A DNA stretch of 5,290 nt from Planctomycetota bacterium (GTDB taxonomy: Bacteria > Planctomycetota > UBA8108 > UBA1146 > JAJFFE01), in assembly GCA_020425835.1 (NCBI GenBank), contig JAGQRC010000315.1:1-5290 (forward strand), in the 5' to 3' direction. Position 1 is the stretch's first letter, and every line of letters begins with the position of its first letter. The notes below the pieces were generated by a model, which saw only the letters and a list, made by a program, of their open reading frames with translations, did not search any database and was not told the DNA's origin. The position numbers and the translations under genes were made by a program. This document shows positions 1 through 5,204 of the stretch, in pieces.

Positions 1-137
1 GGGATCGCATCGGTGGCGAAGACGTCCTCGGCCAGCGTCCGTCCCACCGCACCATCCAGCGGGACATCTTCGGGAGGAAGCGGTGTGAGCCGCGCGAGGA
101 TCTCGTCACGAACCACGGCCAAGGGCTGGAGCGTCAT
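1..137 (-). CDS. moeA: Molybdopterin molybdenumtransferase MoeA, N-terminal part only
   Basis: MoeA inserts molybdate into adenylylated molybdopterin in the last step of molybdenum cofactor synthesis, in the cytoplasm. Only the first 45 or so codons are present, because the gene runs off the left edge. Reading leftwards from an ATG at 137-135, the peptide begins MTLQPLAVVRDEIL. It continues with the family's N-terminal signature: a TPLPPEDVPL stretch, then AVGRTLAEDV, then an Asp-Ala-Ile-Pro (TDAIP) that usually precedes the PxxxxSAMDGYA motif, which would lie outside the window. The ATG overlaps the cutA stop codon as ATGA, which supports this start and suggests translational coupling. A GGGA about ten bases upstream, inside cutA, could serve as ribosome binding site. 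The conserved N-terminus makes the family assignment fairly secure. The catalytic MPT-binding domain is not visible, so activity cannot be judged. Confidence 0.85.
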   Translation of the reverse strand, partial: MTLQPLAVVRDEILARLTPLPPEDVPLDGAVGRTLAEDVFATDAI

Positions 138-499
138 CGCGCCGAATCCCGGTTGGCGTCGTTCGCGCGGCGTTTCATCGACACGTCCTGTGGTCCGGTC
201 ATCTCCTGCACCCAGTAGAAGTATTCCTTGAACCCCTCCTCGATCGGGAGGATCAAGAGTTCGGGGCAGTCGTAGGGGTGGAGCTCCTTGAAGCGCTCCT
301 CGAACCCACCCATGCTGACCGGCGCCGTCTTGATGAGCAGCACCACTTCCGACTCGTCGCAGATCTCACCCTTCCAGCGATAGAACGATCGCACACCGGG
401 GACGATGTTGACGCAAGCGGCCAACCTCTCCTCGACGAGCGTTCGGGCGAGATCGGCGGCATCGTCGGCGCGAACGGTGGAAACACAGAAGTAGATCAT
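134..499 (-). CDS. cutA: CutA family divalent-cation tolerance protein
   Basis: CutA proteins are small, very stable trimers with a ferredoxin-like fold. They were first linked to copper and other divalent-cation tolerance, but their exact biochemical role is still unclear. This 121-residue protein carries the family hallmarks: LVEERLAACVNIVPGV (residues 21-36, with the conserved Cys29), SFYRWKGEI (38-46), EVVLLIKT (51-58), HPYDCPELL (74-82) and the closing YFYWV (93-97). The family core is about 100-110 residues. The last 18 or so residues here form a charged, probably disordered tail (KRRANDANRDSAR) that may exist mainly because the reading frame runs on to the moeA start. The start at 499 is supported by a GAGGAA Shine-Dalgarno element (plus-strand 512-517) 12 bases upstream, and by family starts at the same place. 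There is no signal peptide. The stop overlaps the moeA ATG by four bases, so the two genes are likely cotranscribed. Confidence 0.95.
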   Translation of the reverse strand: MIYFCVSTVRADDAADLARTLVEERLAACVNIVPGVRSFYRWKGEICDESEVVLLIKTAPVSMGGFEERFKELHPYDCPELLILPIEEGFKEYFYWVQEMTGPQDVSMKRRANDANRDSAR

Positions 500-546
500 C
501 GTCGAGCTCGGTTCCTCGTTCTCTGGGGGACGAATCGACAGCGCGC

Positions 547-552
547 ATTATG
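547..552 (-). promoter_or_regulatory. Possible -10 element for cutA-moeA
   Basis: On the minus strand this reads CATAAT, one mismatch from the sigma-70 -10 consensus, in an otherwise GC-rich region and 48 bases before the cutA start. The best -35-like hexamer is TCGACG at 580-575, but its spacer of about 22 bases is too long, so the promoter is only tentative. Confidence 0.25.
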
Positions 553-719
553 CCCGATCGACTCGTCGTGCGTACGTCGACTTTCGAGCGTGTCGTCGGG
601 CGGCGGACGTCGACGGGATGGGGTCGGCGCGAGGCTCGGTGGACGAGAAGATCGCGGATTCGTCGCGGAAGTGGCGACAGGACGCCATCGGAGGTGGACG
701 CCGGTCGCAGCCTCGGCCC

Positions 720-749
720 TTGCCCGCTCGGCGCGTTCTCGGCTAACTT
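720..749 (+). promoter_or_regulatory. Possible sigma-70-like promoter for the kinase gene
   Basis: TTGCCC (720-725) and TAACTT (744-749) are separated by 18 bases and lie 52 bases before the kinase ATG. The -35 hexamer matches four of six consensus positions. The -10 matches three, but these are the most conserved ones (TA....T). This is a weak match in GC-rich DNA and could be chance. Confidence 0.22.
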
Positions 750-801: not shown

Positions 802-3800
802 ATGGGATGGCTACGTCTCCATCCATCGGAGGGCGAAGAGCTCGCCCCCGAGATCCAGTATCGAGAGGTGACCGAGGACGGGCTCGTCTTCGGCCGATCG
901 GCCCGCGTCACGTGGTCGATCGATGACGGTACCGTCTCCCGTCGCCACGCTCGGTTCTTCCGCGATGGCAACACCGACTACGTCGAGGATCTCGGTTCCA
1001 CGAACGGCACCTCGGTCAACGGTCGGCGCATCGCGGGAGCGAGACCTCTCGCCGACGGCGACCAGATCGGCGTGGGGGATCGGCGGTTCACGTACGAGCT
1101 CCTCGCCCCCGTGCATCTCGCGGAGACGCCGGTGCCCACCGGCGCGTCGACCTACACGATCGAAGCGGAGTCGAGTCGGTCGCCCGCTCCCGCGACTCCG
1201 CCCGGACCGGTCGTCACGGATGCCGCTCCCGTTCTGACCGACACGACGCGTTGGACCTCCGTCGAGCTCGTCGGTCGCGGTGGCATGGGAGAGGTCTACC
1301 GCGCGATCGATCACGATCTGGGGTGCGCCGTCGCCATCAAGCGGCTCCGTCGTCGGGACGACGGGAGTGATCGGATCCTCGAGCGTCTCCACGTGCGCGA
1401 GGCGGCGATCGCACGGACGATCCAACACCCCAACGTCGTGACGGTCCTCGAGGACGGCGTGCACGAGGGCGATCCCTACATGCTCCTCGAGTGGATCGAG
1501 GGGCCCACCTTCGACCGCTACCTCACGATCGGCGCGGCGACCGGTGGAGCGCCGTCGATGGGGGAGAAGGTCGAATGCCTGCGACAGGTCGCGCTCGGGC
1601 TCGCCGCCGCGCACCGCGCCGGCGTCGTCCACGCCGACCTGAAGCCGGCGAACATCCTTGTCTCCCCCTCCGAAGATCTGTCGAAGGTCGACAACCTCTC
1701 GATCCTCGAGTCTCCCGACCACCCCGCGGGCATCGCCGATGAAGTGGCGGTCGACCCCGATCTCGAGGAAGAGATCGCCCGCCGGCTCGGCCTTCCCGAG
1801 GTTCCCGACTTCGACTCGATCGCTTTCGTCGGACGCGAAGGAGAGCTCGCGCTGTTGGAGGCGTTTGCCGACGAACTCGTGCAGCCGCGCGCGGGCGCGG
1901 CGGCGCCGGGGTTCCTCTGGGTGATCGTCTTCGGCGAGCGAGGGTCGGGGAAGGCGCGGCTGTGCGATGAGCTGCGCCTGTCGCTCGCTGCACGACAGCG
2001 ATCGGTCGAGCTTCGGGTCACCGATGACGGGACGTTGCCACCTTCCGACTTCCGAGGGTTGTGGGTCAGTCTCGTCCCGCCGCTCCTTCCCGATCTGCCG
2101 GAGCTCCTGGAGCGGTACGAACTCGAGCGCGCGGCGGGCAGGGTTCGGGAGCTCTACCTCAAGCCCTTCCTCATCGGGCAATCGATCCGCTTCGTCGAGC
2201 GCATCGTGCAGCACGCGCGCTCCGCGCGCGCCTTCGTCGAGTGCGTCGACATCGAGACTCGCGGCAATCCGGCCCGGCTGGTCGAGCGACTTCGCGGTTC
2301 CTTCGAGAGCGGCGCTTGGGCTCTGAGCGGTCATGGGTATCGGTTTCGTCCGGACGCGCTCGGCATGGATGACATCGCGATCGCCAAGCGACTGCTCACG
2401 CGCCTCGAGTCGGAGGAGAAGGGGCTGCGCGACCTCCTCGTCGCGATCGCGCCGATCGGCGGGAACCTCGACTTCACGACGATGGTGGCCGCCAGCGGCA
2501 TGCCGTCGGCCGGGCTCTCCTATCTGGTCGAGTACGCGGTGCGCGAGGGCTACCTGCGTCGAGACCGCCGGGGGGACTGTTCCATCGTCGTCGAGCCGTT
2601 GCGCGCTGCCCTCGATGCCCGGGTCGATCCCAAGACGCGCGCGAAGATCGCCAAGCGTGCCCTGCCGTCGATGCACGTGCGCATGGACGCGGGTGACGTG
2701 CCGGCCTCGCTGCACCTCCGGATCGGGCGGCTGGAGGCGGGGATCGGACATCTCGAGCGCGCGTTCCTCGCCCTCCTCGCCGGCGCGGTGCGGGCGCGCG
2801 AAACGTACGAGCGCGACGAGTTCCTCGCGTGTATCGACGAGGCGCGGGCGCTCTACCGCACCACCGCATCGAAGCGCTCGCTGCAGCGGGCGATGGGGCT
2901 CGCGCTCGAGTCGTACCTCGGCGACGAGGGGCGAGGCTACAGCGGGCTCGAGCGGCTTCGTCGACTGCCGATCGCGGTGCGAGTGCACCTGACCGACTTC
3001 GGGATCGCGCGGAAGCTCGTCGAAGGGGAGACGACCTCCCAGGACGACGATGGTCAACCTTGGGGCACCCCGCGCTACATGTCCCCGGAGCAGGCCAAGG
3101 GCGAGCCCCTCGATCACCGGTCCGACATCTACTCCCTCGGTTGCACGTTCTACCACCTGCTGACCGGGGCGCCGCCGTTCGGGGGAGACTCGGCGATGAA
3201 CATCATCGTGAGCCATATCACGCAGGAGCCGGAGCCGATCGCTCAACGCCTCCCCACGATCGATCGGCGCATGGCCGAACTCATCCACAAGATGATGCGC
3301 AAGAGCCCCCTCGACCGCTTCCAGGACTACGCGCAACTGCAGGAAGCGATCACCAACGTTCGCTCTCCCGGTAGCTCGACCTCCTCGACGCAGCTCGACG
3401 GGAGCGCGGGCCGCATCGTCCTTCTCGTCGACAATCCATCGACCGCGGAGCCGAGCAACTCGATGGGACTCAAGCAGCTGTCGGTCGCCGATGTGAACCT
3501 CGAGCTCGGTCGCCACGAGAAAGCGCTGGGCCTCTACGAGAAGGTGCTCGCCGAGAACCCCGCTCTCGAGGTGGAGCTCGGCTTCCGGATCCTCAAGATC
3601 CACCAACAGCGAGGCGACGAGGAGCAGGCGCGTGAGTGGACGCGACGAATCCTGAGACTGACCGGGGATCCGAAGGAGCGCTTCTACTGCCGCTGGAAAC
3701 TCCTGTCCGAGCACCTCGGACGGTTCGACGATGCGCTGGAGGGGATGGCGGAGACCTTGCAAGATCTGCTGGAGGACGAGACCCCACCGGAGCTCAACGT

Positions 3801-3921
3801 CGAGCGGCTGCGTCAGCGACACCGCGAGCTCACGGAGCTCGGCAAGAAGCTCTCGAGGGAGCGGGAGACGGGACTTCTGCTGATCCGGAAGAGTGGCGAC
3901 CTACAGATCGAGCTCGACTGA
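802..3921 (+). CDS. FHA-Ser/Thr kinase-TPR protein with a STAND/AAA-like domain nested inside the kinase domain
   Basis: This is a 1039-residue Hanks-type protein kinase, probably cytoplasmic, with no signal peptide or membrane segment. Residues 25-98 form an FHA phosphothreonine-binding domain (FGRS 30-33, SRRHARF 46-52, DLGSTNGTSVNG 63-74). Residues 104-150 are a Pro/Thr/Ser-rich linker. The kinase N-lobe follows: VGRGGMGEVYRA 157-168, Lys180 in AVAIK, Glu200 as the likely alphaC partner, and catalytic HADLKPANIL 277-286 with Asp279 and Asn284; the usual HRD is HAD. Residues about 289-725 are a nested STAND/AAA_16-like region, described separately. The kinase resumes with DFG 732-734, GTPRYMSPEQ 755-764, DHRSDIYSLG 771-780 and Arg839. 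Residues 891-990 hold about three TPR repeats, then a short coiled-coil-like end. The ATG at 802 follows an in-frame TGA (790-792) closely and has a GGTGAG eight bases upstream. It is probably cotranscribed with the PDZ-like gene and orn. The substrate is unknown. Confidence 0.93.
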   Translation: MGWLRLHPSEGEELAPEIQYREVTEDGLVFGRSARVTWSIDDGTVSRRHARFFRDGNTDYVEDLGSTNGTSVNGRRIAGARPLADGDQIGVGDRRFTYELLAPVHLAETPVPTGASTYTIEAESSRSPAPATPPGPVVTDAAPVLTDTTRWTSVELVGRGGMGEVYRAIDHDLGCAVAIKRLRRRDDGSDRILERLHVREAAIARTIQHPNVVTVLEDGVHEGDPYMLLEWIEGPTFDRYLTIGAATGGAPSMGEKVECLRQVALGLAAAHRAGVVHADLKPANILVSPSEDLSKVDNLSILESPDHPAGIADEVAVDPDLEEEIARRLGLPEVPDFDSIAFVGREGELALLEAFADELVQPRAGAAAPGFLWVIVFGERGSGKARLCDELRLSLAARQRSVELRVTDDGTLPPSDFRGLWVSLVPPLLPDLPELLERYELERAAGRVRELYLKPFLIGQSIRFVERIVQHARSARAFVECVDIETRGNPARLVERLRGSFESGAWALSGHGYRFRPDALGMDDIAIAKRLLTRLESEEKGLRDLLVAIAPIGGNLDFTTMVAASGMPSAGLSYLVEYAVREGYLRRDRRGDCSIVVEPLRAALDARVDPKTRAKIAKRALPSMHVRMDAGDVPASLHLRIGRLEAGIGHLERAFLALLAGAVRARETYERDEFLACIDEARALYRTTASKRSLQRAMGLALESYLGDEGRGYSGLERLRRLPIAVRVHLTDFGIARKLVEGETTSQDDDGQPWGTPRYMSPEQAKGEPLDHRSDIYSLGCTFYHLLTGAPPFGGDSAMNIIVSHITQEPEPIAQRLPTIDRRMAELIHKMMRKSPLDRFQDYAQLQEAITNVRSPGSSTSSTQLDGSAGRIVLLVDNPSTAEPSNSMGLKQLSVADVNLELGRHEKALGLYEKVLAENPALEVELGFRILKIHQQRGDEEQAREWTRRILRLTGDPKERFYCRWKLLSEHLGRFDDALEGMAETLQDLLEDETPPELNVERLRQRHRELTELGKKLSRERETGLLLIRKSGDLQIELD
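1666..2976 (+). other. In-frame STAND/AAA_16-like insertion between kinase catalytic loop and DFG
   Basis: This segment encodes about residues 289-725 of the kinase. From Asn284 to the DFG Asp732 there are 448 positions, where a normal kinase has about 13. In order it carries: a short acidic leader; FVGREGEL (342-349), the entry signature of AAA_16/STAND signalling ATPases; a beta strand and P-loop GERGSGKA (378-385); an LLPDLPELLERY stretch (428-439) typical of these proteins; RELYLKPF (449-456); a TRGNP motif (486-490); a region resembling their winged-helix part (about 524-620); and Ala/Leu/Arg-rich TPR-like helices (about 630-722). Alanine replaces the usual Thr/Ser after Lys384. I find no hydrophobic strand ending in Asp-Asp or a WAD motif, and the distance from P-loop to LKPF is only about 70 residues, so the Walker B part seems lost. 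Codon use resembles the flanks. The boundaries are estimated from kinase motifs, to within about five codons. Confidence 0.8.
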
Positions 3922-4013: not shown

Positions 4014-4616
4014 ATGATCGACGTGACCGAGAAAGTCCTCTGGGTCCTGGCCCTGCTCCTGCTACTCGCCCTCGGAGGCGTGTACTTCCTGCTGGGCACC
4101 AAGTCGGCGATCCCCGCGATCGCCATGCACGGTCGCAACACGTCGAAGGATGAGGTCACCAAGATCCTCGGCGCGGAGCAGGTCAAGTCGCTGGACGCGG
4201 CGCTGAGAGCGAACCCCCGCGAAGGCGACACCGACAAGCAGTACGAGCGGACGGCCGAGAAATACCGTGTCGTCAATCGGGCGACCTTCGATCGGTTCTC
4301 GAACCTCAACGACGCGTTCCAGGAGGTCAAGAAGTACTCCAGCAGCGTGGTCGACAACGACGATGGCTCGAACTCGCTGGAGATCTTCGATCTCGGCGAA
4401 GCCAGCACGCTGACCAACCTCGGTTTCGAGGACCACGACATCATCGACTACATCGACGGGGAGAAGATCGACTTCTCCAATCCGATCGAAGGACGACAGC
4501 TCTTCCAGGCGCTGCGGGATCGCATGGAACAACAGGGCTATCTGAAGATCGACATCCGCCGCCGCTCGAAGCCCACCAAGGTGATCGTGACGCTCGACAA
4601 GCTCCCCCCGATGTGA
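4014..4616 (+). CDS. Membrane-anchored GspC-like PDZ-domain protein
   Basis: This 200-residue protein has a short cytoplasmic N-terminus, one hydrophobic segment (about 9-27, VLWVLALLLLLALGGVYFL) and a soluble remainder that should face the periplasm. Residues about 85-196 follow the pattern of the GspC C-terminus. A helical VVNRATFDRFSNLNDAFQEV stretch comes first, then a variable loop, then a PDZ-like core: LGFEDHDIIDYIDGEKI at 136-152 replaces the usual LGL.xGDvI..ING, and a terminal LKIDIRRRSKPTKVIVTL follows. GspC is the inner-membrane clamp of type II secretion, but no other gsp gene is seen here and the usual homology-region domain is not evident. A stand-alone scaffold or kinase partner is therefore equally possible. 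The ATG at 4014 is chosen because GGGAA lies seven bases upstream and the membrane segment begins directly after it. It sits between the kinase and orn genes, with gaps of 92 and 45 bp. Confidence 0.82.
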   Translation: MIDVTEKVLWVLALLLLLALGGVYFLLGTKSAIPAIAMHGRNTSKDEVTKILGAEQVKSLDAALRANPREGDTDKQYERTAEKYRVVNRATFDRFSNLNDAFQEVKKYSSSVVDNDDGSNSLEIFDLGEASTLTNLGFEDHDIIDYIDGEKIDFSNPIEGRQLFQALRDRMEQQGYLKIDIRRRSKPTKVIVTLDKLPPM

Positions 4617-4661: not shown

Positions 4662-5204
4662 ATGGTCCGGGACGATCTGCTCATCTGGATGGACCTGGAG
4701 ATGTCCGGCCTCGATCCGCGACGCGAGCGGATTCTCGAACTGGCATGCCTGGTCACCGACAGCGAGCTGCAGGTCGTGGCCGAAGGCCCCGAGATCGTGA
4801 TCCGACAGAGCCGCGAGTTGCTCGACGGCATGGATGACTGGAACCGGGAGCACCACGGGGAGTCCGGGCTCGTCGATCGCGTGCTCGCCTCCGAGGTCGA
4901 TGAGGCCGCGGCGGAAACGACGGTGATCGAGTTCCTCGCCGAGATCGTCACCCCGAGAACTGCCCCCCTGGCGGGAAACTCGATCCACCAAGACCGCCGT
5001 TTCATCCAGGAGTACATGCCGCGCCTCGACGAGCTCCTCCACTACCGGAACGTCGACGTCTCGACGATCAAGGAGCTCGTCCGGAGGTGGCAGCCGGTGG
5101 TCTTCGAGGGTGCTCCGGTCAAGCGGGGATCCCACCGCGCCATCGACGACATCCGAGAGTCGATCGAGGAGCTCCGCTACTACCGCCAGAGAGCGTTCCG
5201 CTGA
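4662..5204 (+). CDS. orn: Oligoribonuclease Orn (DEDDh 3'-5' exoribonuclease)
   Basis: Orn degrades 2-5 nt RNAs, and especially dinucleotides, to mononucleotides. It completes RNA decay and, where c-di-GMP is used, pGpG breakdown. The 180-residue length equals the usual size (E. coli Orn is 181). All five DEDDh residues are visible: Asp11 and Glu13 in IWMDLEMSGLDP, Asp111 in GNSIHQDRRF, and His158 and Asp163 in GSHRAIDDIRES. Other family blocks are MDDWNREHH (57-65), YMPRLDELLHYRNVDVSTIKEL (118-139) and the ending EELRYYR. The protein is cytoplasmic and normally a homodimer. It is the third gene in the plus-strand series, 45 bp after the PDZ-like gene. The product looks intact and fully active, and the family match is unambiguous. 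Confidence 0.98.
   Translation: MVRDDLLIWMDLEMSGLDPRRERILELACLVTDSELQVVAEGPEIVIRQSRELLDGMDDWNREHHGESGLVDRVLASEVDEAAAETTVIEFLAEIVTPRTAPLAGNSIHQDRRFIQEYMPRLDELLHYRNVDVSTIKELVRRWQPVVFEGAPVKRGSHRAIDDIRESIEELRYYRQRAFR

Follow-up and report, generated by a model that had tools for sequence, protein, structure and literature searches.

The 5,290-nucleotide stretch analysed here (the window) is a contig of a Planctomycetota bacterium (JAGQRC010000315.1), on which a single open reading frame, positions 802–3921 of the forward strand, encodes a Ser/Thr protein kinase of 1039 residues, preceded by cutA and the start of moeA and followed by genes for a hypothetical protein and an exonuclease (Table 1). 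In this kinase the catalytic-loop residue Asn284 and the DFG residue Asp732, both of which are metal-binding residues, lie 448 residues apart, and Pfam resolves the kinase domain into two separate PF00069 stretches; it also detects an FHA domain and, weakly, TPRs. The coordinates, the motif order and the 448-residue gap given in an initial annotation of the sequence are borne out by the open reading frame, the motifs and the two Pfam kinase stretches. The reading that we consider probable as a whole is that of a kinase of a family designated N1, carrying a nested, degenerate STAND-like regulatory module, to which a foreign tail has been attached by an assembly chimera.

The window kinase has the fold of a PknB-like Ser/Thr protein kinase and carries the catalytic Lys and Glu, HxD, Asn, the DFG Asp, the APE Glu, the αF Asp and the Arg, but lacks the short spacing between catalytic-loop Asn and DFG Asp of such kinases (448 residues in the window, 438–456 in N1, and 514–547 in a second family, N2). 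In all 17 ordinary kinases compared, 12–16 residues separate the two. The motif pair was found in 63 of 64 other kinase proteins (P0018–P0081), where 77 of 78 pairs are spaced by at most 30 residues and one by at most 40, and the spacing is at most 30 in 94 of 94 kinase reading frames of loci L001–L082. All 172 comparison pairs thus lie within 40 residues, as counted by a script that takes the first D[FLYW]G past the catalytic loop and is biased towards short distances, and in kinases that were collected as kinase relatives and are not a random sample. Since the comparison spacings are all at most 40 residues, the 448-residue split is not a product of chance.

The same interruption recurs in relatives. 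When the insert alone served as query (lengths 571–1818, 7994 candidates scored), the window protein, P0002 and P0003 were returned, and the latter two are nested in the same way. The N1 profile, at E ≤ 1e-20 and with proteins above about 970 residues excluded from the list, yielded 80 proteins, comprising 15 nested full-length proteins (P0002–P0016), one fragment (P0017) and the 64 kinases P0018–P0081, and a gap in E-value from 4e-107 to 1e-37 separates the family from these kinases. With the insert of a deeper relative as query, 64 proteins were obtained: 52 constitute N2 (P0083–P0134), and the other 12 are ten AAA_16 proteins without a kinase and two kinase-AAA_16 proteins (P0145, P0146) of ordinary domain order. 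About 8000 candidates were scored in the N1-profile and N2-insert searches, and the counts of N1 and N2 proteins are therefore lower bounds. The large split is found in 15/15 N1 and 49/49 N2 proteins having both motifs, fragments P0017, P0102, P0133 and P0134, which miss one motif, being left out. The initial annotation had called for homologues with the same interruption, and the nested form is present in all 64 relatives that have both motifs; the contrary outcome that it had named, in which relatives would have kinase and STAND genes apart and uninterrupted and never fused, is not what the relatives present.

Among 392 genomes of one phylum, centred on a Planctomycetota record (L005), the N1 profile (E ≤ 1e-15, at most four candidates scored per genome) matched 15, i.e., ten with N1 and five with N2, and the N2 profile (E ≤ 1e-30, at most three candidates) matched nine, including the same five; genomes with N1 and genomes with N2 are disjoint, and together they make up 19 of the 392. 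Some loci repeat listed proteins (L094 contains P0017, L095 is P0016 save 0.1%, L102 is P0107, and L104 and L105 are near P0084), and the protein and genome counts therefore overlap. All N1 and N2 proteins with a taxon stated in the source are assigned to Planctomycetota or Planctomycetes. The N2 profile (E ≤ 1e-15, at most eight candidates scored per genome) found no match in 179 genomes from the phylum to which an Acidobacteriota record (G402, L004) belongs or in 169 from that of a Myxococcales record (G406, L057), and the N1 profile found none in eight genomes; these scans had no positive control, and the empty results show little. No relative was found when the window protein was compared with genome contigs, and the insert was found by tblastn in none of 82 loci, 80 of which had been picked by kinase motifs. 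Viral contigs gave two kinase matches. Weak N1-profile matches occurred at nine places (E 3e-10 to 9e-7) in 3 of 13 genomes reached via loci; L083, L087, L088 and L089 are ordinary kinase-then-STAND arrangements, and in the other five loci no catalytic-loop motif was seen. On contig C8 of G008 (L085, L088, L090), an open frame of 2184 residues matches parts of the N1 insert profile at three places, and its L088 piece reads as an ordinary kinase-then-STAND protein.

In midpoint-rooted trees of 50 rows (15 N1 proteins and the window, 13 of the 52 N2 proteins, five members of the K family described below and 16 ordinary kinases), N1 and N2 cluster both in the N-lobe tree (100/98, with a bootstrap that had not settled, 0.982) and, the window excepted, in the C-lobe tree (99/96). 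This clustering fits a single origin of the split and is no proof of it.

The kinase core around the split is preserved. The Lys, Glu, His, Asp, Asn, DFG Asp, αF Asp and Arg are invariant in 15/15 N1 and 46/46 N2 proteins, and the APE Glu is kept in 15/15 and 45/46, respectively. In the predicted structure of P0002, strands 281–283 and 714–716 flank the insert, which places it in the β7/β8 turn; the exit into β8 is confident (helix 698–706 and strand 714–716, block predicted local distance difference test (pLDDT) 93–95), and the entry linker 290–309 is of low confidence. Fold searches were filled with kinases, the best structural match being of PknB/Stk1 type, and the top four Foldseek rows by E-value were Rad53/CHK2 FHA kinases (best 3.8e-12). 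The nesting is thus conserved and, as judged from the alignments and the model, consistent with kinase activity. The β7–β8 turn would accordingly hold, in two bacterial families that cluster with each other, a folded module of about 430–540 residues without loss of catalytic residues, and kinase annotation based on Pfam picks up two partial stretches in such split kinases.

Profile comparisons indicate that the insert is derived from a STAND module. AAA_16 matches were obtained in 4/4 N2 inserts scanned, hhalign aligned the N2 insert with a LuxR-type AAA_16 profile over 428 columns (probability 99.5%), and the N1 and N2 inserts aligned with each other over 418 columns (probability 99.8%). The insert stretch comprises 446 residues in the window and 436 in P0002 and P0003, and measured inserts span 436–446 residues in N1 versus 518–537 in N2, N1 being about 75 residues shorter, mostly in the nucleoside triphosphatase (NTPase) core. 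The winged-helix-like MarR_2 match is below threshold (E 0.041 with the whole window protein, 0.011 with the insert alone), and a PDB sequence search with the inserts gave weak matches only (Orc1, E 0.005; a P-loop protein, E 0.004). The position of the Walker A lysine is Lys in the window, Lys in eight and Arg in seven of 15 N1 proteins, and Lys in 43 and Arg in three of 46 N2 proteins; the N2 residues aligned to the Walker B pair are Leu in 43/47 and, at the neighbouring position, acidic in 19/47, and so do not form a Walker B motif. By these motifs the NTPase of the insert is degenerate. The Walker A Lys-to-Arg replacement in 7/15 proteins and the shortened core make it doubtful that the N1 insert is a sensor driven by ATP. 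Of the earlier proposal, the nesting of a STAND-like module within a kinase core that is intact and appears to be active is supported, the relatives being nested too, and the suggestion that the insert could open or close the active site is a hypothesis. A role in anti-phage defence was considered and rejected, as the PADLOC matches shown coincide with the two kinase segments and appear unspecific.

The downstream end of the reading frame has a different ancestry. By alignment and tree placement alike, the kinase gene of the window is chimeric, with residues 1 to about 765 belonging to N1 and residues 766–1039 to K, a family of unsplit kinases. Identity of the window to N1 is normal up to residues 751–780 and then falls to 0.25 at residues 781–810, against 0.53 among the relatives, while residues 763–1039 are 53–60% identical to the unsplit kinases P0031, P0041, P0045 and P0034, in alignments that extend to, or to within one residue of, the C-termini of these proteins. 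The window groups inside N1 in the N-lobe tree (100/100) and pairs with the K protein P0031 in the C-lobe tree (95/85). It shares with N1 the N-terminal half, i.e., FHA domain, N-lobe and insert, as well as the CutA/MoeA neighbours, but not the C-lobe, which in N1 ends about 120 residues past DFG with no TPR tail. K proteins (P0031, P0045, L126) are zinc-ribbon-like kinase-TPR proteins encoded at a separate locus, and the C-lobe, TPR tail and downstream gene of the window correspond to theirs; K occurs in 3/392 genomes (E ≤ 1e-40), each time with N1 on another contig. Because the frame crosses the junction at about 3097–3114, the C-lobe downstream of it and the TPR tail are foreign to N1; the initial annotation had missed this join.

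Table 1 Features of the window. Nucleotide positions refer to the 5,290-nucleotide stretch, residues to the 1039-residue kinase protein.
Feature	Nucleotides	Residues	Strand	Basis or remark
Start of moeA, cut by contig end	1–137		-	57% identity over 44 aa to MoeA of L110, E 2e-10
cutA, divergent from kinase gene	134–499		-	PF03091, E 8.9e-32
FHA domain of kinase protein	886–1077	29–92	+	PF00498, E 2.1e-17
Kinase N-lobe to catalytic loop HADLKPAN, N1 type	1249–1653	150–284	+	PF00069 stretch 152–292
HADLKPAN	1630–1653	277–284	+	Window sequence
Stretch from Asn284 to the Thr preceding DFG	1654–2991		+	446 aa in the window
Nested insert proper, β7–β8	~1663–2982		+	Flanking strands 281–283 and 714–716 in P0002 model
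P-loop GERGSGK of nested STAND-like module	1933–1953		+	Window sequence
Winged-helix-like part of insert, weak	2431–2571	544–590	+	MarR_2, below cut-off
Conserved segment GYSGLERLRRLP, insert to β8-DFG	2935–2970		+	Kept in N1
DFG motif	2995–3003	732–734	+	Window sequence, N1 alignment
Chimeric junction N1/K	3097–3114		+	N1-like to A765, K-like from K766–D771
Remainder of K-family C-lobe and TPR tail	3097–3921		+	53–60% identity to K proteins
Hypothetical gene, N-terminal segment of transmembrane appearance (by eye)	4014–4616		+	K-locus neighbour
Oligoribonuclease-like exonuclease	4662–5204		+	PF00929 RNase_T, E 7e-31

The flanks of the window correspond to those of two separate loci, N1-type on the left (CutA, MoeA) and K-type in the gene to the right. 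Divergent CutA and then MoeA (the L110 product is MoeA by Pfam) stand beside N1 in all eight loci in which the contig extends far enough upstream (L110, L112–L118), two of the ten N1 loci being cut inside N1 and excluded from this count. Beyond MoeA, L115 and L117 encode a large protein with FHA and carboxypeptidase-regulatory-like domains, and L114, L116 and L118 have FHA-like matches at similar places. The gene that follows the kinase in the window has a homologue (28% identity) directly after K in 3/3 K loci (L125–L127); for the exonuclease there is no match in these three loci. Directly 3′ of N1, fast-evolving homologues of one gene are found in nine of ten loci (L110, L112–L119), and this gene was not found in the window. 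By eye, its product has a signal peptide, a coiled coil and a C-terminal transmembrane helix, and the four examples scanned gave no Pfam match; this seemingly membrane-anchored neighbour is possibly the partner of N1. Alongside N2, a MutS-looking gene (L120, L122, L124) and a DUF255/thioredoxin-looking gene (L120, L124) were noted by eye.

Together, these data suggest a route by which the nested module may control the kinase. Positions 1 to about 3096 encode most of an N1 kinase, i.e., an FHA domain and a PknB-like Ser/Thr kinase with a STAND-like module in the β7–β8 turn, inserted after the strand that follows the catalytic-loop Asn and before the strand that bears the DFG Asp. Strands β7 and β8 each adjoin one metal ligand, and a module at this place could therefore set the position of DFG. 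The module would act as a regulatory platform that binds a partner, possibly the coiled-coil neighbour protein of the relatives, and its state would pass to β8 and the DFG Asp through the conserved segments found directly before β8 at the C-terminal end of the insert (GLxxLxRLRRLP in N1, GNWYEILG in N2), so that partner binding may determine where the second metal ligand lies. Phosphothreonine, either of the partner or of the kinase, could be bound by the FHA domain, and switching in N1 is probably not powered by ATP hydrolysis in the insert. We tentatively propose to view N1 and N2 as inside-out STAND kinases in a single chain, in which the module is a built-in lever and partner binding moves β8 and the DFG Asp.

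Several points weigh against the nested kinase with its chimeric tail as interpreted above. The confident model is that of P0002 and not of the window protein, whose own model (three rows) has a pLDDT of 44.8; the coiled-coil neighbour, as the proposed partner, was not found in L111; and regulation through β8 is a conclusion that we infer from topology and conservation. As to the join, the tetranucleotide distance between the two halves of the window is 0.293, inside the within-genome range (three reference pairs, 0.196–0.322 within and 0.336–0.460 between genomes; with one window and nine locus pairs, the test is indicative only), and fits true recombination too, and in the three genomes that have both N1 and K no same-strand exact N1–K stretch exceeds 16 nucleotides, so that an overlap able to mislead an assembler is unsupported. 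We judge an assembly error to be most likely nevertheless. For these two reasons, likeness in composition and the lack of a long shared stretch, a true N1–K fusion by within-genome recombination at the conserved SPEQ motif, by which the nested kinase would have gained a C-lobe and TPR tail, is kept as an unlikely alternative, with which the frame open across the join, a third-position GC of 0.83–0.86 in both halves and the co-occurrence of N1 in 3/3 K-bearing genomes among the 392 also agree; it has to contend with a fused protein met once only in the 7994 candidates, on a contig as long as the window, with 0/15 full-length N1 relatives showing it (in a list limited to about 970 residues), with flanks that belong to two separate loci and with the absence of the N1 neighbour gene from the window. 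That the nesting is itself a misassembly has next to no probability and is rejected. The window is a short contig, and misassembly had been suspected at 1666 and 2976, but both junctions are kept in relatives, and the same nesting in 64/64 relatives with both motifs occurs on other contigs, some of megabase size, and in genomes from other assemblies; the doubtful join lies instead at about 3097–3114.

The role of the module is also open to other readings. The insert may be a localisation or scaffolding spacer with little effect on catalysis, a possible but rather doubtful reading by analogy with SRPK1, whose spacer in this position is reported, in the available portions of two papers, to be unnecessary for catalysis and to hold the kinase in the cytoplasm (PMC2667211, PMC8596628). 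The degenerate NTPase in N1 and the seemingly membrane-anchored neighbour protein in 9/10 N1 loci would suit a spacer, but the insert is long, folded and conserved over its full length in N1 and N2, with conserved segments right before β8, and the SRPK1 spacer has, in the portion available, also been suggested to stabilise the active conformation (PMC2667211). That the insert is an active STAND switch, driven by ATP and gating the kinase, appears improbable: the homology to STAND proteins and the Walker A Lys in 43/46 N2 proteins, 8/15 N1 proteins and the window speak for it, and the replacement by Arg in 7/15 N1 proteins, the Walker B positions of N2 (Leu in 43/47 at one, acidic in 19/47 at the other) and the shortened N1 core speak against it. 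If the module controls DFG, as in the proposed lever, it would offer a natural way to couple sensor and kinase, and the open-access literature searched yielded no description of lever-type control of this kind in bacteria. One contig can combine, in a single reading frame, a real novelty with a probable artefact.

A description of a nested STAND module in a bacterial kinase was not found in the open-access literature, most subscription papers lying outside the search. The available portions of PMC11032199, PMC2667211, PMC7159879, PMC8195603 and PMC8596628 describe no such kinase, and in PMC11032199, a survey of Planctomycetota kinases, the main text as available has no word beginning with "insert". 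The nearest precedent is eukaryotic: in the accessible part of PMC2667211, SRPK1 has about 250 inserted residues at β7/β8, called structurally uncharacterised, and CLK (LAMMER) kinases have a hairpin at this site, which is also that of the insert in N1 and N2. The initial view that large kinase inserts usually lie elsewhere is therefore weakened by SRPK1 and CLK (PMC2667211), while the bacterial form does appear undescribed within the open-access scope. SRPK1 and CLK are eukaryotic kinases, and the part of the source available does not describe the SRPK1 insert as a STAND ATPase (PMC2667211). PknB/Stk1-type Ser/Thr kinases share the kinase core and catalytic residues with N1 and N2 and are the best structural match. 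Their kinase domain is uninterrupted, and we know of no nested module or N-terminal FHA domain in them. In Rad53/CHK2, FHA precedes the kinase as in N1, although the Foldseek rows reach a TM-score of only 0.13–0.15 of the query, with a root-mean-square deviation of about 13 Å. To our knowledge, Rad53/CHK2 have no nested module, and SRPK1/CLK no FHA domain. SRPK/CLK kinases phosphorylate SR-rich splicing factors, and the window kinase is not classed with them. LuxR-type STAND ATPases (AAA_16 and PF00196) align with the insert over 428 columns, through the P-loop module and the parts that follow it; these rows contain no kinase, whereas the module of N1 and N2 is degenerate and embedded in one. 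Bacterial kinase-STAND proteins (kinase, then AAA_16; L083, P0146) unite kinase and STAND in one chain, like N1 and N2, and the N1 insert profile recognises the STAND start in L083 (E 3e-10). In the control proteins the ATPase follows the complete kinase, as had been stated initially, whereas in N1 and N2 the module lies inside the kinase, between HADLKPAN and DFG.
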